This document shows, piece by piece, positions 1 through 5,933 of a DNA stretch of 5,933 nucleotides. The stretch lies in NCBI GenBank assembly GCA_030837265.1, contig JAUPKV010000122.1:1-5933 (forward strand), in the 5' to 3' direction. Both the position numbers and the translations under genes were made by a program. Under the pieces are notes generated by a model. That model had not been told where the DNA came from, did not search any database, and worked only from the letters and a program-made list of their open reading frames with translations. Position 1 is the first letter of the stretch. Each line of letters begins with the position of its first letter. This DNA comes from Methanobacteriota archaeon (GTDB lineage Archaea; Halobacteriota; Methanosarcinia; Methanosarcinales; Methanosarcinaceae).

Positions 1-35
1 AGCATTACAGGCAAGCTTCGATAGCTGAGGCTCTC

Positions 36-68
36 GGGGTCTAAACCCCATTTATTTTTTTTCGATTT
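36..68 (+). terminator. Hairpin plus T-tract, terminator-like
   Basis: A perfect 5-bp stem (GGGGT at 36-40, ACCCC at 45-49) with a 4-nt loop is followed by ATTTA and a nearly continuous T-tract to 68. This has the shape of an intrinsic terminator for a rightward gene lying left of the window. Because it sits immediately upstream of a rolling-circle initiator gene, it could instead be part of that replicon's origin hairpin. The T-rich stretch also includes ATTTATTTT (50-58), a possible weak TATA box for the operon that follows. The three readings cannot be separated from sequence alone. Confidence 0.45.
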
Positions 69-77
69 TTTTGGAGA

Positions 78-101
78 CCGAACTATACCAGTATACTACG
101 G
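78..101. promoter_or_regulatory. 24-bp dyad, candidate operator or Rep site
   Basis: The half-sites CCG-N3-TATAC and GTATA-N3-CGG face each other across a 2-nt centre, and 18 of 24 positions are symmetric. The dyad lies after the T-rich promoter-like stretch and runs into the G-rich SD of the replication gene, so a protein bound here would cover the likely transcription start or the SD. Autoregulation by the N-terminal helix-turn-helix-like part of the initiator is a reasonable inference. A nicking cruciform (double-strand origin) is the alternative. Confidence 0.4.
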
Positions 102-110
102 GGGGAGATT

Positions 111-1448
111 ATGCCAGGTCTATCTCAAGCTCAGATCTCAGATTTTTACAAAATCACCAGCGAAAAACCTTATTCTGTTAGCCAAATCGCCAATTATCTC
201 AAAGAAAAGTATAAACTCAAAGAAACTTTAAAACGAATTTATAAAAGGATCTATGATTATCTAACAACGCAAGCGGGTAAGCTCCATTTCTTGATGGGAA
301 GGGAAGATTCTATTCTTTGGATCCGGGCTAATCCTCTAAACCCACTTACCTTGATCCAAGATAAGCAAATTACCGATAAGACCGAACTCGACAGCGAGCG
401 GCACTGTAACACATCCAAAAAACCGTATAAGCACTCTGAAACTTTAGAAGATCTTAAAAATATTAACCCCGAACGTTATAAGGCTCTGCATAAACTCAGC
501 CGGTGTAATGGTTTCGGTTACATGGACCGTGAAACAAAAGAATTCATCTACACCAACAATATTTATTTCGAGGTCATTGGGGGCTTTGGTGAATACATTT
601 CAAGGATCAATACTGAAAACATTGAAATGGTTCATAGCATGGACGGTAACCCCATTTTTTCCAGTAAAGTACATCTACCGTATAAAACCCGATTCACAAG
701 CCAAGATCGCCAAACAGCAAACAAACAAGCCTATTGGGCTACCTGGGACTATGTAAACCATCGGTATTTAAAAGGCGTTTTCCTCACTCTTACTGCTCCC
801 TCTAGCGCTGGCGATCTCGTATCGGTTAACACTCAAATGCGCGAAGCCTGGGATAAATTACGCGACCTTCTTGACTCAAAACTTGCCAGTGGCCTAACCT
901 ACATCAAAGTAAATGAATTTCAAAAAAACGGACGGCTGCACTTCCATATTGTGATATTTGGTCTAAACTGGCTAATGCCTATAAAACTTCTTAAAAAGAT
1001 ATGGGTAAGCTACGGAGGTGGCCCGGTAATGAATATCTGCGCCATAACACAGACTAAAGAAGGATGGACCTGGGCTCGCCAATCTCCAAGGGATGCAGGA
1101 GCTTTACCTCCTGCTGGCTATCTCTCAGATTATCTCGAAAAATCAATGAGTCCTAGCTCAGGTGCTTTGTATTGGGCTTTCAATATTCAGTTCTGGTCCG
1201 CAAGCAAAAACATCAAGCAGGCTCCCGAGCGCATAGAATCAAAAGGCGTATGGGCTCGGGTGGGCGTAGTTGGCAAAGAAGGTAAACGTCTCTTTCAGAA
1301 AGGTAATGAAAAAGCTAAAGCCTTCTTCTCCGGAGCTCTTGCACGCTGCAAGAAACAACCAGCTCCAAAGCAGGATGATAAACCAAAGGAAAAAGAAAAG
1401 CCTTCTGTGAGCTTTAGGACAGCTTCCGCGCTATTCATGCAGGGGTGA
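111..1448 (+). CDS. HUH-family rolling-circle replication initiator
   Basis: This 445-aa protein has the three motifs of rolling-circle replication initiators in order: motif 1 FLTLT (residues 224-228), motif 2 GRLHFH with the metal-binding His277-Phe-His279, preceded by Glu269, and motif 3 YLSDYLEK with Tyr337, Tyr341 and Lys344. Such enzymes nick one strand at an origin, stay covalently bound through tyrosine and start rolling-circle replication. The YxxxY pair recalls phage and archaeal plasmid or virus Reps. Residues about 1-72 look like a winged-helix DNA-binding region (SVSQIANYLKEKY, then ETLKRIYKRIYDYL). The C-terminus from about 415 is a charged Lys/Pro/Glu tail. ATG 111 is preceded by a G-rich SD (GGGGGAG). 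It is the first gene of a tight operon ending near a tRNA-Leu 3' fragment, so it probably belongs to an integrated plasmid- or virus-like element. It is full length, with catalytic residues intact. The role as Rep is well supported; the exact family name is not. Confidence 0.9.
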   Translation: MPGLSQAQISDFYKITSEKPYSVSQIANYLKEKYKLKETLKRIYKRIYDYLTTQAGKLHFLMGREDSILWIRANPLNPLTLIQDKQITDKTELDSERHCNTSKKPYKHSETLEDLKNINPERYKALHKLSRCNGFGYMDRETKEFIYTNNIYFEVIGGFGEYISRINTENIEMVHSMDGNPIFSSKVHLPYKTRFTSQDRQTANKQAYWATWDYVNHRYLKGVFLTLTAPSSAGDLVSVNTQMREAWDKLRDLLDSKLASGLTYIKVNEFQKNGRLHFHIVIFGLNWLMPIKLLKKIWVSYGGGPVMNICAITQTKEGWTWARQSPRDAGALPPAGYLSDYLEKSMSPSSGALYWAFNIQFWSASKNIKQAPERIESKGVWARVGVVGKEGKRLFQKGNEKAKAFFSGALARCKKQPAPKQDDKPKEKEKPSVSFRTASALFMQG

Positions 1449-1453
1449 AATCA

Positions 1454-1780
1454 ATGTCTCACAAAAAATACAGAAAACAAATGCTCATGAATCAATGCAT
1501 AGTCAAATACAACTCAAAATGTGCTACATGTGGGTGCAGCCTAACTGCTCAGGGCGCTTATTCTTCGTCTAGTTACGCAACAGGCTCACAGCATGGCGAA
1601 ACATCAACCACTTTTAGATTTTGTTCAAAAAAATGTGAAATCCTCTTTGAAATTAACTTTCATGCTGCTTTCATGGGATGTGAAGAATCATTTTCTCATC
1701 TAGTTCATGATCATGGATATTCTCCTGAAGAACTCTTTCAGGCAATAGGGGGTAAAATATGTTCTCTCTCGACGAACTAA
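1454..1780 (+). CDS. Small cysteine-rich zinc-finger-like protein
   Basis: This 108-aa protein has CATCGC (Cys23, Cys26, Cys28) and, about 30 residues later, FCSKKC (Cys57, Cys61). A CxxC...CxxxC arrangement of this kind fits a TRASH/MYM-type treble-clef zinc-binding fold. The segment between them is Ser/Gly/Thr-rich and probably a loop. The C-terminal third is His- and acid-rich (HLVHDHGYSPEELF). ATG 1454 is chosen because AGGGGTGA (1441-1448) lies 5 nt upstream; a GTG at 1445 in the same frame would add three residues but has no SD at usable distance. The SD overlaps the stop codon of the replication gene, so the two are probably translationally coupled. A DNA-binding or accessory role in the replicon is plausible but unproven. 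Confidence 0.75.
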   Translation: MSHKKYRKQMLMNQCIVKYNSKCATCGCSLTAQGAYSSSSYATGSQHGETSTTFRFCSKKCEILFEINFHAAFMGCEESFSHLVHDHGYSPEELFQAIGGKICSLSTN

Positions 1781-1935
1781 CAAAACAATTAGAATTTGAT
1801 AAATCTGAATTGGCTAAAATAGAATCTAACAACCTTCCTTTTCATGAAAAATGCGGGGTTTACTGGAAGAATTTAAAAATTTCGATCTATAATTTAGAAT
1901 CTCAAATCTCTTTCATTCATCATAAACGGGGATAA
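1759..1935 (+). CDS. Small 58-aa hypothetical protein
   Basis: An ATG-initiated 58-codon frame starts inside the end of the zinc-finger-like gene (22-nt overlap) and has a good SD, AGGGGG, a few bases upstream. The product begins MFSLDELTKQLEFDKSELAK and is mostly predicted helical and charged, with one Cys, one Trp and a basic HHKRG end. There is no signal peptide or membrane segment. Overlap with the gene before it and the 1-nt gap to the ATG after it (TAA 1933-1935, ATG 1937) support a real, coupled gene. I do not recognise the family. Small helical proteins of this kind in plasmid operons are often regulators or replication accessories, but that is only context. Confidence 0.55.
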   Translation: MFSLDELTKQLEFDKSELAKIESNNLPFHEKCGVYWKNLKISIYNLESQISFIHHKRG

Positions 1936-1936
1936 C

Positions 1937-2205
1937 ATGGCCTTTCTAAGTAGTAATATCTCTTACATGATGCAAATCCCAAAGAAACCAGAATTTAAAA
2001 TTCCAGAAAAAAAATTGATGCCCTGGTGATTCCTACATTGCTAAAATACGATGCTACGAACTTTGTAAGAGTCCACCCTGAATTTAATACGGCTGAAGAA
2101 TATGCTTCAGCTTACAGGGATCGCTGGGCAGGGTACAAAAAAGATTATACTCAGGTGTTTATTGTAGAGGTTTTTCTGCAAATATTAAATACCTCTCGAA
2201 AATAA
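1937..2205 (+). CDS. Frameshifted small gene, 30 aa or 89 aa after -1 slip
   Basis: ATG 1937 follows the previous stop by 1 nt and has GGGG as its SD (1928-1931). The zero frame ends at TGA 2027-2029 after 30 codons. At 2007-2014 there are eight A's arranged as A AAA AAA in the reading frame, a canonical -1 slip heptamer. Shifting there re-enters a frame that is open to TAA 2203-2205, giving 89 aa. The downstream part reads like ordinary protein (VIPTLLKYDATNFVRVHPEF, then EYASAYRDRWAGYKKDY), with aromatic and charged residues. It could be a programmed frameshift, a recent inactivating indel or a sequencing error in the A-run. A GTG at 2026 could start the second frame alone (59 aa) but has no SD. 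The family is not recognised. The gene stops 38 nt before the tRNA-Leu fragment, so its end may have been shaped by integration. Confidence 0.45.
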
Positions 2206-2216
2206 AAGATTCCTTT

Positions 2217-2270
2217 TTTGGATCTTGGCGCCAAAATTTTTTGTGGGTTCGAATTCTACCTCTCGCACTA
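2217..2270 (+). pseudogene. tRNA-Leu 3' fragment 1 (attachment-site scar)
   Basis: The end of a tRNA gene is visible without its 5' half: T-arm GTGGG (2243-2247), loop TTCGAAT, arm TCTAC (2255-2259, pairing with G-T wobbles), acceptor strand CTCTCGC (2260-2266), discriminator A and then CTA. Upstream, GGATCTTG (2220-2227) may be a decayed anticodon-arm remnant. The acceptor strand requires a 5' partner GCGAGAG, which is typical of archaeal tRNA-Leu and is absent from the expected position. The fragment follows the plasmid-like operon, as an attR left by integration into a tRNA 3' end would. It is not a functional tRNA. Confidence 0.65.
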
Positions 2271-2348
2271 AAGGGTAGGGTAATAGGTAAAGATAAAAAA
2301 CGCAATGCTGTTATGTAGAATTTATGCACAACCTCTTTTAGAGTGTGA

Positions 2349-2370
2349 GAAAAATCGGATTTTTCTTTTT
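2349..2370 (+). terminator. A/T hairpin with T-tract
   Basis: GAAAAAT (2349-2355) pairs with ATTTTTC (2359-2365) around a 3-nt loop, and five T's follow. It is weak because the stem is nearly all A-T. It may end transcripts coming from the replication operon. Confidence 0.3.
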
Positions 2371-2414
2371 CAAAAGTTAGTTAGTCGAAAATAAGTCACC
2401 TCTTTTAGGGAGTT

Positions 2415-2443
2415 ACCTTAACAAAATAAGGTTTTTTCTTTTT
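2415..2443 (+). terminator. Second terminator-like hairpin
   Basis: ACCTTA (2415-2420) and TAAGGT (2427-2432) form a 6-bp stem with a 6-nt loop, followed by TTTTTCTTTTT. It has the form of an intrinsic terminator and lies about 210 nt after the last operon stop. It is one of three hairpins with T-tracts in this stretch. Confidence 0.4.
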
Positions 2444-2528
2444 AGAAGATTATCATATATAAAAACAGATTTTTATCTCTTTCAAAAGTTAGGTAGTTCA
2501 TTGATACACGGTTGATGTTTTCAGAATG

Positions 2529-2586
2529 TTTGAGTTACCTGTATTCCTGCACTAACCTTTTAGGATACAAGTAACTCAAATTTTTT
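2529..2586 (+). terminator. Long 16-pair hairpin followed by T6
   Basis: TTTGAGTTAC-C-TGTAT (2529-2544) pairs with ATACA-A-GTAACTCAAA (2565-2580) with a single mismatch, and CC at 2546-2547 can extend it against GG at 2563-2564. The loop is about 15-20 nt and T6 follows at 2581-2586. It could be a strong terminator, a structured small RNA or an origin cruciform. No gene is seen immediately upstream that needs a terminator here. Confidence 0.5.
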
Positions 2587-2614
2587 GTACGCATGTGTAA
2601 GATTTATGCACAAC

Positions 2615-2930
2615 AGTCAATTTTCAAAATCGTTCTAACAAAAAAGCCTTGATTCTCTTTCGAAGTATTCCTCTGAAAAGGAATCACTTTTCTCTTTTAG
2701 AAGCTGACCTGAAAAAGCAAGCGAAATTTCTAATACTGCATTATATTTTCTGAAAACTCATTATATTTGATTCAGTGGGTTTTGGAAACGGTGGTTTTAC
2801 AGAATTATTGACCATTTTCCTTTTTTAACAATAATGGATGCTTTAGGAAAAATATCTGATTATCAAGATATATGTTTTGCATCTAAATAGATAGCGTAAG
2901 TTTTGAATTAACAAATTGATTCATAGATAG
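2615..2930. other. A+T-rich stretch without a supported gene
   Basis: I see no credible coding frame on either strand. An imperfect hairpin, ATTCCT (2667-2672) with AGGAAT (2679-2684), is followed by a T-rich run. A very short frame, ATG 2834 with 18 codons ending at TAG, lacks an SD and is not called. The rest is plain A+T-rich sequence. Confidence 0.5.
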
Positions 2931-2932
2931 TT

Positions 2933-2941
2933 CTTATAAAT
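2933..2941 (+). promoter_or_regulatory. Candidate TATA box for the cupin gene
   Basis: CTTATAAAT resembles an archaeal TATA box. Transcription would begin about 25 nt downstream, giving a leader of roughly 120 nt before ATG 3086. Long leaders are common in Methanosarcina. Surrounding ATTAAT dyads make the exact box uncertain. Confidence 0.35.
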
Positions 2942-2981
2942 TAATTCTGATTAATATTTCGCTAGATTAATTATAGTGTAT

Positions 2982-3018
2982 TAATAATAATGCTAATAAT
3001 AATAATAATAATAATAAT
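2982..3018. repeat. TAA trinucleotide microsatellite
   Basis: Three TAA units (2982-2990) are followed by TGC and then eight perfect TAA units (2994-3017). The tract lies in the likely leader of the cupin gene. Such tracts change length by slippage. Confidence 0.85.
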
Positions 3019-3085
3019 TGTGCGATATTAATTGAATATTACTAATAGTTTTAACTATTTAGAAATAACTTCGGGGTTTGGACAA

Positions 3086-3619
3086 ATGGAAACACAAATT
3101 AGTAGAGCAAAAAAGACACTGGGTATTTTGCTAGCAGTTTGTTTTTTACTGTCAGTGGCAGCAGTTGCAGTAAGTGCTAAAGAGCAAACTAATGAATGTG
3201 GAAAAATGGAAGAGAACCAAAAGAAAGGATTCTCTATTAATATCGAAAAGGCCACTTTGGAAAATAACTATTTCCGCAAAGTGCTTTATACTGCAGAGCA
3301 CAGCCAGCTTGTACTTATGAGCCTCAAGTCCGGGGAAGAAATCGGAATGGAAATGCATGAGAATAGCGACCAGTTTTTCCGTTTTGAAGAAGGAGAAGGA
3401 AAGTGCATAATCAATGGTAATGAATACGAAGTGTCTGCTGGATCTGTAATAATAATCCCGGCAGGTGCTGAACACAATGTCATAAACACTGGAAAAACAG
3501 AGTCTCTGAAACTGTATACTATCTATTCGCCGCCTATTCACAAGGATGGCATCGTGCGTGCCACAAAGGAAGAAGCTGAAGCCAATCCAGCGAAATTTGA
3601 TGGAGTAACTACAGAATGA
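3086..3619 (+). CDS. Secreted cupin-domain protein
   Basis: This 177-aa protein has a signal peptide (Lys9-Lys10, hydrophobic 11-29, likely cleavage after VSA at residue 31) followed by one cupin barrel. Cupin motif 1 is GMEMHENSDQFF...EEGEG (His91, Asp95, Gln96, Glu101/Glu102) and motif 2 is PAGAEHNVIN (His130). His91, one glutamate and His130 are the likely metal ligands; the usual second His of HxH is not present, as in the DQFF-type small cupins. These are generally short cytosolic proteins of unknown substrate ending YTIYSPPxH, as here (LYTIYSPPIH), so a leader peptide is an unusual addition. ATG 3086 is chosen over a TTG at 3034-adjacent frame position 3032 because it gives a textbook signal peptide and has GGGG (3073-3076) upstream. 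It stands alone, between an A+T-rich leader and a strong terminator. Function is likely metal-dependent sugar or small-molecule binding or isomerisation outside the membrane; the substrate is unknown. Confidence 0.85.
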   Translation: METQISRAKKTLGILLAVCFLLSVAAVAVSAKEQTNECGKMEENQKKGFSINIEKATLENNYFRKVLYTAEHSQLVLMSLKSGEEIGMEMHENSDQFFRFEEGEGKCIINGNEYEVSAGSVIIIPAGAEHNVINTGKTESLKLYTIYSPPIHKDGIVRATKEEAEANPAKFDGVTTE

Positions 3620-3638
3620 AACTATAAAAAACAGAAAT

Positions 3639-3672
3639 AAACGCTTTATTTTCATAAAGCGTTTTTCTTTTT
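3639..3672 (+). terminator. Intrinsic terminator of the cupin gene
   Basis: An 11-bp perfect stem (AAACGCTTTAT at 3639-3649, ATAAAGCGTTT at 3654-3664) with a 4-nt loop TTTC is followed by TTCTTTTTT. It begins 20 nt after the cupin stop codon. It is the best terminator in the window, and on the other strand its A-rich flank could serve the leftward relic. Confidence 0.9.
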
Positions 3673-3680
3673 TACTATGA

Positions 3681-3871
3681 AATTAAAGGTTCAATTTGTT
3701 CTTTCCAGAGCTTTCCCTTATTGAGTTTTTAAAACTATTCAGCAGGATATCTTTTTGTGGATCCTTTTGAATACGAGATTTAATGAAATCTATTTCTCTT
3801 ATCTCCCTTCTCTTTCCTTTTTTCTTCCATAAAACGAGGAATACAGAGAACCTTTTGCAGGTGCAGGTCAT
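3681..3871 (-). pseudogene. Degraded paralogue of the 5224-5925 gene
   Basis: The leftward frame (62 codons from ATG 3871 to TAA 3683-3685) matches an internal part of the leftward protein at 5224-5925. REIDFIKS corresponds to RKLDFVKP, and LLNSFKNS to VLNRFKKL. At DNA level a 16-nt block, AATTTGTTCTTTCCAG, is identical at 3693-3708 and 5734-5749. Similarity runs about 3681-3804 against 5721-5860, with a few indels. The relic stops at TAA where the other copy continues through AAC, and it lacks the roughly 150-residue C-terminal part. Sequence upstream of REIDF does not match. It is a truncated, probably non-functional remnant lying between the cupin terminator and the second tRNA scar. Confidence 0.7.
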
Positions 3872-3925
3872 GTATTTTTTAAACCGAGACCTCGAGATCT
3901 AAAGGAAAAAATTCTGAGTGTATAC

Positions 3926-3984
3926 GAATTCTCAGGAAATATCATCAAAGTATTTCGTGGGTTCGAATCTTACCTCTTGCACTA
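3926..3984 (+). pseudogene. tRNA-Leu 3' fragment 2 (attachment-site scar)
   Basis: This is a longer relic than fragment 1. It has an anticodon-loop-like CTCAGGA (3931-3937, anticodon CAG, leucine), 5 nt of decayed stem, a 14-nt variable arm (3943-3956) ending TTC, T-arm GTGGG (3957-3961), TTCGAAT, CTTAC, acceptor strand CTCTTGC (3974-3980), A and CTA. The spacing from anticodon loop to T-arm is what a class II tRNA-Leu needs. The anticodon stem pairs poorly and no matching 5' half (GCAAGAG start, D-arm) is found upstream, so it is not functional. The last 30 nt resemble fragment 1 closely, with a few substitutions. Confidence 0.7.
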
Positions 3985-4014
3985 AATTTGGGGGATATAG
4001 GTAAGGCGAAAAAA

Positions 4015-4139
4015 GTGTACGCTACAGAAAGATATCCACAGTACTGATTTTTAGGAAATTGTCCTACCTAAAATTAATTCATTTTCATAAATCAAATCTG
4101 ATAAAAAAGTGTACGCTTTTGTATAAGTTACGCACAATC
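4015..4139 (+). repeat. Degenerate repeats R3 and R4 behind scar 2
   Basis: R3 (4015-4041) and R4 (4109-4139) both begin GTGTACGCT and end in a CCACAG or GCACAATC block, matching R1 and R2 behind the first scar. Sequence just before R3 (TAGGTAAGGCGAAAAAA, 3998-4013) also resembles that before R1 (TAGGTAAAGATAAAAAA, 2284-2300). Between R3 and R4 is a hairpin, TTTTAGG (4049-4055) with CCTAAAA (4067-4073). After R4 the similarity to the sequence after R2 continues for about 25 nt (ATTTTC, AAAA, CTAAC/TTAACC). Confidence 0.5.
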
Positions 4140-4518
4140 CCTCATTTTCGAAAAATGCTTTAACCAAATATTCATTTTATTTCTGCACTGTAAATCTAGT
4201 ATAAAATTTTAAGTTAGCTTATAGTATTATTTTTGTTTAAATATTTACATACTATTTTTGCTTTATATATAAAGGTTAAATTCTTAGAAACCATTTAAAA
4301 AATATTCTAGCATAAGTATATGAATGATGACCTCTATTGTGTATATATATCTTTTTAGTGAAGGGTCGTGTTTGTGAGTGATTGACAACCATAATCGCTA
4401 ATGTCTTTCTTTGTTTTATTAATTTGGTTTTAGTGCCAGTTTTTCATAATTGATTATAATGGAAATCTAAGCAAATAGGATATACCTTGGATAAAAATTT
4501 TAAAAATATGAGGAAATT
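4140..4518 (+). promoter_or_regulatory. A+T-rich kaiB upstream region with TATA-like boxes
   Basis: No coding frame is supported here. Two archaeal TATA-like boxes are visible: TTTATATATAAA (4262-4273) and TATATATAT (4342-4350). Starts about 25 nt downstream would give leaders of roughly 230 or 150 nt before kaiB. Which one is used cannot be told from sequence. Confidence 0.35.
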
Positions 4519-4854
4519 ATGAGAGATTTAGCAGAAAATGGAGATGTACCAATAGAATCTGATACTATTTCTGACCAAGAATGTTATTTATTGAAGCTAT
4601 ATGTGACTGGTCAGACTAAGAATAGTAGGAATGCAGTCAACAACTTGAAAAAGATATGTGAAGAAAATCTGTGCGGAAGGTACAGGATTGAAATTATAGA
4701 TCTTTTGGAGAATCCACGATTAGCTAAGGAAGATCAAATATTAGCTGTCCCAACTCTGATGAAAAAACTTCCTTCATCGGTAAAAAAAATAATAGGAGAC
4801 CTTTCGAATACAGAGAGTGTTCTGGTCGGTCTGGATCTGCGCCAGAATAAATGA
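4519..4854 (+). CDS. kaiB: KaiB-family circadian-clock-like protein
   Basis: This 111-aa protein is a clear KaiB homologue with a thioredoxin-like fold. Residues 23-36 ([14 protein letters not shown]) are the first strand and loop. Residues 60-97 carry [21 protein letters not shown] (written here only in part as IDLLENP, then [12 protein letters not shown] and IIGDLSN), and GLDLR lies at 104-108. In cyanobacteria KaiB switches fold to bind the KaiC ATPase ring and reset its phosphorylation cycle; in archaea its role is not settled. This copy has a roughly 20-residue acidic N-terminal extension and lacks the acidic C-terminal tail of cyanobacterial KaiB, ending LRQNK. ATG 4519 has GAGG about 6 nt upstream. 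No kaiC or kaiA lies in the window, so a partner must be elsewhere. It follows the second tRNA-Leu scar and may be mobile cargo. Confidence 0.95.
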
Positions 4855-4970
4855 TTTCGTTAAACATATACAAGTCTTTAGACTTCGAAATTGTATCCCT
4901 TGCAGCAGTTCTTTATGTGTTCATTTAGAAAATAAGGTCTATAGCGTAACCAAGATTTTATTGATTTACT

Positions 4971-5240
4971 TTATAATGGATCCCTGCAATTATCAGGAAA
5001 TAAAAAATGAACATTTGATTTTTCAATAACTGCCTGGATCTCTTCTTTACTTACGTTTGATACTTCTATTACATCAAAAGCACCAAAGAATTGATTTCTT
5101 TTTTTTACATTGAATAGTAAGGTAATCGACCAAATAACCAATATTCTCAGGTCAATAGGATGAACGAGTGTAGAAAAGCATAGATAAAGCAGGCTGGAAA
5201 AAGTAAATGGTTTATCTGACTTTTCATTCCTTATATACAA
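4971..5240 (-). pseudogene. Possible remnant coding frame, unrecognised
   Basis: A leftward 89-codon frame begins with a TTG inside the end of the 5224-5925 gene, without an SD. Its C-terminal half looks protein-like: VKKRNQFFGAFDVIEVSN, then VSKEEIQAVIEKS, suggesting a strand followed by an amphipathic helix. The N-terminal half is less convincing. It may be the tail of a gene that has lost its start, or chance. The rest of 4855-4970 holds nothing beyond a small dyad, ATACAA (4868-4873) with TTGTAT (4891-4896) enclosing AAGTC-TTTA-GACTT, after kaiB. Confidence 0.25.
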
Positions 5241-5925
5241 AATTCAGAATTTTTCTTATCTCTTTTGTATCCAGTTTAAAGTCGCCTTCCTTCACCCTGT
5301 TTTTCAATTTATTCAAGGTACTTCTATATTTTATTCCGAATTCCCGAGCTTCTTTTGGACTTAAGCTTAGAATCTTCTGCTTGATATCTTCCTCATTAAT
5401 GAAAACCTGAGCTCCTGTCACATCTAAAGGCTGATCCTCAATGTTGTTGGCTTCTTTTCCAATGTAAATTAAACTATCAGCCTGAATGTGTTTTCTCTTT
5501 AAAACTCCTATATCTCCTTCAAACTTGTTTTCGAGATGTTCAACATACTGCAAAATAGTCCTACTTAATGGCTTGAAATATTGAGAACCTTCCTTAACTT
5601 CCCCAGATTCATAATCAATAAATGGTTCATAAACTATCTTCTGATAATCCTTAGTAAACGGAGCCAGAGGCTTAACTGCATCACCTTTTTCTTCAATTGT
5701 CTGAAATCCCACAAGGAAGAAGTTAAAAGGTTTAATTTGTTCTTTCCAGGGGTTCCCATCATTCAACTTTTTAAACCTGTTTAATACATTGGGAGTGGTA
5801 ATTGTAAGCCTCGAAATTTCATACTCAGGCTTAACGAAATCCAGTTTTCTCTTATTATCTTGTGCCGGCTTCCGAGAAATAAGGCATATCAAAAACCCCT
5901 TTATATACTCTAAAAAAAATAACAA
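5224..5925 (-). CDS. Conserved hypothetical protein, probably 5'-truncated
   Basis: A leftward 233-codon frame runs from TTG 5925 to a stop at 5224-5226. The body is well-formed soluble protein: ISRLTITTPNVLNRF (residues about 39-53), KPFNFFLVGFQ, KPLAPFTKDY, YEPFIDYESGE, YFKPLSRTILQYVEHLENKF, then IYIGKEANN and a helical C-terminus with LSPKEAREFGIKYRSTL, which could be helix-turn-helix-like. Apart from the TTG start there is no methionine in 233 residues, no SD is visible and a stop lies directly upstream. It is therefore more likely the C-terminal part of a longer gene than an intact one. Residues 1-25 are hydrophobic and do not resemble the rest. A second, shorter copy of residues about 26-68 lies at 3681-3804. 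I do not recognise the family and assign no function. Confidence 0.6.
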   Translation of the reverse strand: MLFFLEYIKGFLICLISRKPAQDNKRKLDFVKPEYEISRLTITTPNVLNRFKKLNDGNPWKEQIKPFNFFLVGFQTIEEKGDAVKPLAPFTKDYQKIVYEPFIDYESGEVKEGSQYFKPLSRTILQYVEHLENKFEGDIGVLKRKHIQADSLIYIGKEANNIEDQPLDVTGAQVFINEEDIKQKILSLSPKEAREFGIKYRSTLNKLKNRVKEGDFKLDTKEIRKILNFVYKE

Positions 5926-5933
5926 TTACTATA

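Follow-up and report, generated by a model that had tools for sequence, protein, structure and literature searches.

Evidence for a tandem array of decayed casposon derivatives with cupin and kaiB cargo at tRNA-Leu sites of a Methanosarcina-like archaeon

Introduction

Casposons are archaeal transposons that use a Cas1 integrase and are thought to be ancestral to CRISPR adaptation. Here, a stretch of 5,933 nucleotides from a Methanobacteriota archaeon of the family Methanosarcinaceae (assembly GCA_030837265.1, contig JAUPKV010000122.1, positions 1 to 5,933 of the forward strand; the whole stretch is referred to below as the window) is analysed by comparison with related genomes. Positions 2243-5933 very probably constitute a tandem array of decayed derivatives of family-2 casposons in a Methanosarcina-like archaeon, located at tRNA-Leu sites or their remnants. 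The comparison established the terminal inverted repeats (TIRs), the 14-nt target spacing, the T-loop target, the C-terminus of the casposon family-B DNA polymerase (PolB), a cargo slot and an empty counterpart of one of the target sites in other genomes.

Among described elements, MetMaz-C1 of Methanosarcina mazei Go1 (family 2) is ~10 kb long, comprises eight genes, has a published 31-nt TIR and, in the accessible part of the report, is mobile in vivo, with transfer of the casposon's own target site (PMC10359463). For the M. mazei casposase, the accessible in vitro data describe a 14-bp target-site duplication (TSD), a CGCA motif and a requirement for upstream tRNA-Leu sequence (PMC6977970), while the target given for the A. 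boonei casposase contains TCAAATC 9-15 bp upstream (PMC6614799). Tandem arrays of M. mazei casposons are already known from the accessible parts of two reports (PMC9939771, PMC6563490). Adjacent elements, some of them inactivated, have been described in Methanococcoides burtonii and Methanolobus psychrophilus; TIRs were not findable for the M. burtonii elements and for the second M. psychrophilus one, according to the accessible text of that study (PMC4046053).

The window shares with MetMaz-C1 the 31-nt TIR, the 14-nt target and PolB, and differs from it, as far as the accessible description goes, in the size of its elements (0.27 kb, ~1.4 kb and at least 1.9 kb) and in lacking a casposase gene. 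Its target resembles the measured M. mazei casposase target and also the A. boonei type, as these are given in the accessible text (PMC6977970, PMC6614799). The arrangement is like that in M. burtonii and M. psychrophilus, for which neither kaiB nor cupin cargo is named in the accessible part of the report (PMC4046053).

Results

Casposon ends and 14-nt joins

The initial annotation of this DNA, made from the letters alone, had described an order of tRNA-Leu scar, repeats, cargo gene and leftward relic that occurs twice. This order is confirmed, and each of its parts is identified: the scars lie at 2243 and 3957, the repeats are TIRs, the cargo genes encode a cupin and KaiB, and the relic belongs to PolB (Table 1). 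Candidate TIRs were scored by comparing the published M. mazei 31-nt TIR with 300 dinucleotide shuffles, which identified both ends of element 1 and the left end of elements 2 and 3. The array thus holds three derivatives, of which the first is a miniature of 270 bp and the other two carry cupin and kaiB, respectively. The first repeated module had been taken for a single unit, which does not hold: facing TIRs at 2547 and 2562 leave a gap of 14 nt, so this module consists of two elements. When the window and 65 loci (fetched loci are denoted by L, genomes by G) were searched for TIRs that face outward and lie no more than 40 nt apart, 15 rows were obtained, 13 of them distinct and the window pair included, and the gap was 14 nt in all. 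Besides element 1, short inward TIR pairs occur in L008 (94 nt) and L024 (156 nt).

Table 1. Features of the window (positions counted from its first letter; TIR values refer to the 300 shuffles)
Feature	Position	Strand	Remarks
Rolling-circle Rep	111-1448		PF23343; relatives ~82% in two Methanosarcina genomes, 65-67% in a third
Small protein with CxxC...FCSKKC pattern	1457-1780		no Pfam match; no relative in the loci fetched by then
Scar A, T-arm and acceptor 3' part of tRNA-Leu	2243-2263	+	casposase recognition region upstream of the 14-nt target; T-loop-to-TIR spacing 30 nt, as in the 37 pattern places
14-nt target-site sequence	2264-2277	+	CGCACTAAAGGGTA
Element 1	2278-2547		270-bp miniature non-coding casposon derivative; inward-facing TIR pair
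Left TIR of element 1	2278-2308	+	31 nt; 0/300
Subterminal repeat of casposon ends	2314-2332	+	TGTAGAATTTATGCACAAC; further copies 2596-2614 and 4120-4138; similar stretch after the TIRs of L099, L100 and L114
Right TIR of element 1	2517-2547	-	4/300
14-nt target sequence between elements 1 and 2	2548-2561	+	TGCACTAACCTTTT; 12/14 identical to end and flank of tRNA-Leu(GAG) in L210
Left TIR of element 2	2562-2592	+	10/300
Cupin gene, cargo of element 2	3086-3619	+	PF07883, E 1e-16; best full-length relatives 79-80%
PolB C-terminal relic and beginning of a Cas1-like segment	3681-3871	-
Scar B, old tRNA-Leu remnant and upstream flank	3907-3977	+	casposon-free in L161 and L218; with TIR in L115
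14-nt target-site sequence	3978-3991	+	TGCACTAAATTTGG
Left TIR of element 3	3992-4022	+	0/300
kaiB gene, cargo of element 3	4519-4854	+	KaiB PF07689, E 3e-25
Open frame with PolB residues 694-887 (5239-5823)	5224-5925	-	C-terminus towards cargo; 76% identity to L003 PolB
cas1 (casposase gene) segment joined to PolB	5815-5864	-	9-nt overlap at junction; 41 nt 90% to cas1 in L081, 50 nt 86% to cas1 relic in L083

The motif GTGGGTTCGAAT occurs at 2243 and 3957 inside a direct repeat of 69 nt (77% identity). In each scar, the first base of TTCGAAT lies 30 nt ahead of the TIR, a distance made up of 16 nt of T-loop and acceptor and 14 nt beginning with YGCA. The spacing of the family-2 target, 14 nt at the 3' end of tRNA-Leu, is thus exact at scars A and B, and 14 nt separate elements 1 and 2. 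A pattern composed of the T-loop, N9, the TSD and the TIR was found at 37 places in 24 of the 111 Methanosarcinaceae genomes, and its backwards control at none. Having casposon ends and a target and no casposase gene, the elements qualify as casposon-derived and non-autonomous.

Similar arrangements with better preserved elements were read in relatives. Contig C54 of genome G001, whose casposon end aligns at 73% with window positions 3991-4176, has two casposons in succession and one end of another, with 14-nt joins and the array ending at tRNA-Leu(TAA); its last casposon has an identical CGCACTAAAGTTAT on both flanks. The casposon of Methanosarcina sp. DH2 has an identical CGCATCTGTTTTTG on either side and is located at a 3'-half tRNA-Leu. 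The 14-nt sequence published for MetMaz-C1 is the one at L114, where it stands beside a T-loop without an intact tRNA. The tandem casposons of Methanosarcina sp. 2.H.T.1A.6 (L081/L082) are like the window in their head-to-tail order, 14-nt joins, tRNA-Leu site and cargo between TIR and PolB, and differ from it in keeping the cas1 and HNH genes and also polB, one copy of which has a split near residue 603, and in that their cas1 end, rather than the cargo end as in the window, adjoins the tRNA.

Scars and target sites

Upstream of its T-loop, scar B agrees with tRNA-Leu(TAA) at 16/20 nt and, when GTGGG is left aside, at 11/15 nt, values that were each reached by 0/2000 random window positions. 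A degenerate tRNA-Leu end in L161 matches window positions 3907-3990 at 79% over 83 nt. For the stretch upstream of GTGGG alone, which is mostly non-tRNA sequence, the match in L161 was attained in 0/2000 mononucleotide shuffles and that in L115 in 6/2000. In L161 and L218 the remnant continues uninterrupted by a TIR, and in L115 a TIR directly follows TGCACTAAATTTAT at the point where the window TIR directly follows TGCACTAAATTTGG; scar B is therefore an old remnant of tRNA-Leu that casposons used as a target. A 101-nt stretch around scar B was matched in 24 of 30 genomes, mostly in the tRNA part only, and its upstream half was covered at four places (G012:C10 and the three that were read, in G011, G017 and G001). 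No intact tRNA was found in the window. Since a 14-nt duplication copies no T-arm, the two T-arms are two old tRNA-Leu copies and not the product of such a duplication.

L210 and L213 each have three tRNA-Leu(GAG) genes in tandem, the last of which is followed by a casposon TIR, and the flank CGCACTAAACTTTT agrees with window positions 2548-2561 at 12/14 nt. In L213, changes affect the two acceptor ends of the copy beside the casposon, which looks as though the insertion had freed it to decay.

Polymerase and cas1 remains

The leftward gene at the right end of the window and the relic in the cupin module form one family, as had been proposed (80% over 51-56 nt). Longer relatives of this family contain YMDTDS followed by KRY, which are presumably marks of family-B DNA polymerases. 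In L003, the locus of Methanosarcina sp. DH2, the full protein of 890 amino acids (aa) matches Pfam DNA_pol_B (E 1e-5, 25 bits with a cut-off of 23), is preceded by a protein with weak HNH matches and has a Cas1 protein nearby (E 5e-70); the combination of the three identifies this locus as a casposon. The PolB C-terminal fragments themselves gave weak matches only in Pfam and were not recognised by NCBIfam, so they were identified via the DTDS-bearing relatives and the full L003 protein. Judged from these alignments, the leftward family is a C-terminal piece of casposon PolB, to which ~50 nt of cas1 are fused in the same reading direction. Cas1 and PolB fragments that are fused or close and have the same direction also occur in L085, L090 and L096, while the two genes lie on opposite strands in L003 and L081. 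The named close relatives of the window proteins are mostly from Methanosarcina or other Methanosarcinaceae.

Thus, a complete family-B polymerase is not present in the window, which retains residues 694-887 of 890 and the relic only, with the DTDS motif at residue 579 lying outside this range. Likewise, of the Cas1-type casposase only the ~50-nt match was found, and more may lie beyond 5933; the L003 proteins gave no tblastn match in the window for the HNH nuclease and the two helix-turn-helix genes. Where dN/dS could be computed for truncated PolB, it was 0.09-0.18. Counted with six outgroups, the window lineage has 17-28 synonymous and 12-17 other changes and its nearest relative 14-25 and 9-15, mostly with no acceleration; with outgroup L022 the counts are 17/17 for the window and 25/9 for the nearest relative. 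These values would fit recent truncation and kept function alike.

The cargo slot

The survey of PolB C-termini covered 35 sequences with 39 rows, 33 of them distinct by reading. In the window and 20 other cases, the PolB C-terminus is followed first by an open frame of 80 aa or more and, within 4 kb, by a facing TIR; among these cases, the TIRs of L015 and L098 score low. The PolB N-terminal part is lacking in 12 of the 21 (tblastn, 1e-10). No pair among 27 cargo frames of at least 100 aa, kaiB included, is similar at E 1e-3, and the slot between TIR and PolB holds unrelated genes in different casposons. Half of the scanned cargo proteins (10 of 20) have no Pfam match. Among the rest, some count as defence or conflict proteins: an oligonucleotide cyclase (L022), a RES domain protein (L081), a protein with a Schlafen AlbA_2 domain (L015), a PIN-TPR-GreAB protein (L012) and a PLD protein with similarity to DrmC (L013). 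Cargo of other types includes DUF4386, a 4Fe-4S protein and OmdA. In the L022 casposon (10597-12035), the cyclase gene in the slot adjoins a frame of 182 aa.

KaiB and cupin are ordinary genes of the genus, with relatives in 10/30 and 30/30 genomes, respectively. The four cupin and six kaiB loci read elsewhere do not support a standing place for them among casposon genes: none of these loci has the cargo arrangement with PolB or with a strong TIR, although one weak TIR-like match each was seen in L163, L165 and L091, and in L089 and L094, which have kaiB in pairs on the chromosome, a piece of Cas1 or PolB lies 4-7 kb off, outside the cargo position.

Putative landing pads in Methanococcoides

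Among 35 pattern sites in the fetched loci, ARAGORN detected an intact tRNA at seven (one called tRNA-Met) and none at 28. At these 28 sites, scar B included, conservation drops 2-3 bases before the T-loop, and the acceptor part is kept. A search for this pad family with its 14-nt target, for which no TIR was required, returned 33 matches in 8/111 genomes and none in the control; 13 of the matches are in G007 (Methanococcoides seepicolus). At the 31 distinct sites read, there is no intact tRNA, GGG stands at the TIR start in 28, and the following sequence is TIR-like by eye in 30. The scores of upstream pairs have a median at background level. At least 9/10 distal target bases are shared by 28 site pairs, versus a mean of 2.1 and a maximum of 7 in 500 column shuffles.

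Because of these dispersed tRNA-less pads with TIR-like ends and shared target sequences, it is tentatively proposed that Methanococcoides casposons may propagate their own landing pad of ~32 nt (the last two T-stem bases, the T-loop, the acceptor end and the 14-nt target) to unrelated sites, with arrays growing as pad-end-pad-end. The window would then represent an older Methanosarcina state tied to tRNA-Leu genes or remnants (scar B), and scar A might be an early pad. This proposal as a whole is considered speculative and on balance unlikely. The idea that pads constantly belong to the casposon ends of Methanococcoides-type loci was rejected in this general form, since a pad was flagged at 16 of 69 ends, at several of them by a loose rule. 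The pattern for pads inside TIR ends was found at four places in 3/111 genomes, versus one in the control. As a separate observation, in the Methanococcoides-type loci L016, L104, L105, L126, L179 and L202, casposon ends of ~56 nt are iterated with T-loop pads in units of ~86 nt, in a repeat-spacer-like manner.

The left side of the window

The left part of the window encodes a rolling-circle Rep and a small protein whose cysteine pattern is presumably zinc-finger-like. DNA similarity to the Rep relatives stops at the Rep stop codon, and none of the three Rep loci read (L159, L160 and L161) yielded a casposon TIR. In the genome with the 65-67% relative (L161), the casposon-free counterpart of scar B is situated on the strand opposite to Rep, ~4 kb away. 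The initial annotation had placed the array next to a rolling-circle replicon; Rep does lie to the left of scar A, and the replicon is probably a mere neighbour of the array. No plasmid record matched the window, and in viral contigs neither relatives of Rep or of the leftward gene nor the T-loop-TSD-TIR pattern were found.

Discussion

The window had been interpreted as a tandem array of cargo modules accreted at a tRNA-Leu locus. The array, the sites and the common family of the relics withstand comparison, while the casposon nature of the modules, that is, the TIRs, the casposase target and the polymerase, had been missed. The window is a complete contig, so the third scar that had been predicted near 6000-6030 would lie beyond its end. 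Several observations weigh against the reading as a casposon array. There is no casposase gene in the window, and the right TIRs of elements 2 and 3 are missing. An empty form of the whole array was not seen. The TIR at 2562-2592 is weak when compared with the published TIR alone; however, it scores much higher (53) with the TIR variants of relatives, and the 44 nt around it match at 91% the end of a casposon that adjoins an intact tRNA-Leu (L116). Beyond GTGGG, scar A agrees with tRNA-Leu at 7/15 nt, which is chance level (425/2000 random positions). The 14-nt sequences flanking element 1 match at 8/14 positions only, which implies either an old duplication or ends that stem from separate insertions. 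Finally, 12 of the 32 other PolB C-termini do not have a clear cargo-TIR layout (seven have no facing TIR, and five are weak, far or ambiguous).

The alternatives account for parts of the evidence. The modest individual scores of the two TIRs at 2517-2547 and 2562-2592 might suggest unrelated repeats of AT-rich DNA and two stray T-arm matches, but the other two TIRs were not equalled by any of the shuffles, the 30-nt and 14-nt spacings are exact, and PolB with its high identity to the L003 protein follows in the expected order. The spacing and gene evidence makes this explanation untenable, and its probability practically nil. Tandem duplication of one rearranged casposon with PolB fused to Cas1, in which the cargo was exchanged later, is possible though rather unlikely: PolB is joined to a similar Cas1-like stretch in both modules, and the likeness extends beyond the PolB part (3/2000 shuffles), so that both modules may descend from one such casposon. 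The alignment is, however, short and gapped, the relic is heavily decayed, and no other fetched locus spans the same junction.

Two further explanations concern the origin of the scars. If these were attachment sites of tyrosine-recombinase elements that integrated into tRNA-Leu and later became casposon targets, the rolling-circle element directly to the left of scar A would find a place, as would the case of Methanosarcina sp. DH2, in which a recombinase gene starts within ~100 nt of the 3'-half tRNA-Leu that bears the casposon with identical target duplications. Yet no integrase gene was found in the window, scar A is only ~27 nt long, and upstream of scar B there are ~50 nt outside the tRNA that recur beside remnants in other genomes, so that an old locus seems likelier than a recent attachment site; this origin is deemed improbable. 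L084 (4763-6023) contains a tyrosine recombinase gene near a 3'-half tRNA-Leu that is a casposon target as well. The T-arm repeats of the window might instead be landing pads (T-loop, acceptor end and 14-nt target) carried by the casposons themselves and later used as the next target. The in vivo transfer of a target site in the accessible part of the M. mazei report (PMC10359463), the tRNA-less pattern sites with their common limit of conservation, the pad family and the excess of pairs with shared distal targets agree with this. The signal, though, comes mainly from Methanococcoides and genomes near it, with Methanosarcina contributing 4/28 pairs; 5/28 pairs have upstream scores above the all-pair 95% level of 34, indicating related upstream flanks, and scar B is an old remnant that is casposon-free in two genomes. 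For the window itself, self-carried pads are therefore decidedly improbable.

Under the preferred reading, that of a casposon array at tRNA-Leu sites, a Cas1-type casposase provided by an intact casposon would recognise tRNA-Leu genes or their old remnants by T-loop and acceptor end (TTCGAAT-N9-YGCA), and the casposon ends would be joined 14 nt apart at this target. Further casposons would enter the same kind of site, giving rise to head-to-tail elements. Subsequent deletions would take polB, HNH and cas1 and leave the target-side end with the TIR, the cargo gene and the PolB C-terminus, whereby element 1 would be reduced to 270 bp, and elements 2 and 3 would keep cupin and kaiB, respectively.

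Tandem casposons at tRNA-Leu are already known, and the kaiB and cupin cargo and the miniature element are the new details. A literature search found no paper in which casposon and KaiB occur together, and for miniature, non-autonomous or cargo-related terms, no title among the matches listed refers to miniature casposons. What appeared on a blind reading as a repeated module is thus a probable fossil bed of casposons, which adds the host-type genes kaiB and cupin to the known cargo, offers a miniature casposon and reveals a place for cargo, bounded by TIR and PolB, in which relatives also bear genes of defence type. With the pads scattered in Methanococcoides, how casposons gain new targets becomes a testable question; if the proposal made for these pads is true, each casposon insertion in Methanococcoides would found a new target, recalling the leader and repeats of CRISPR.

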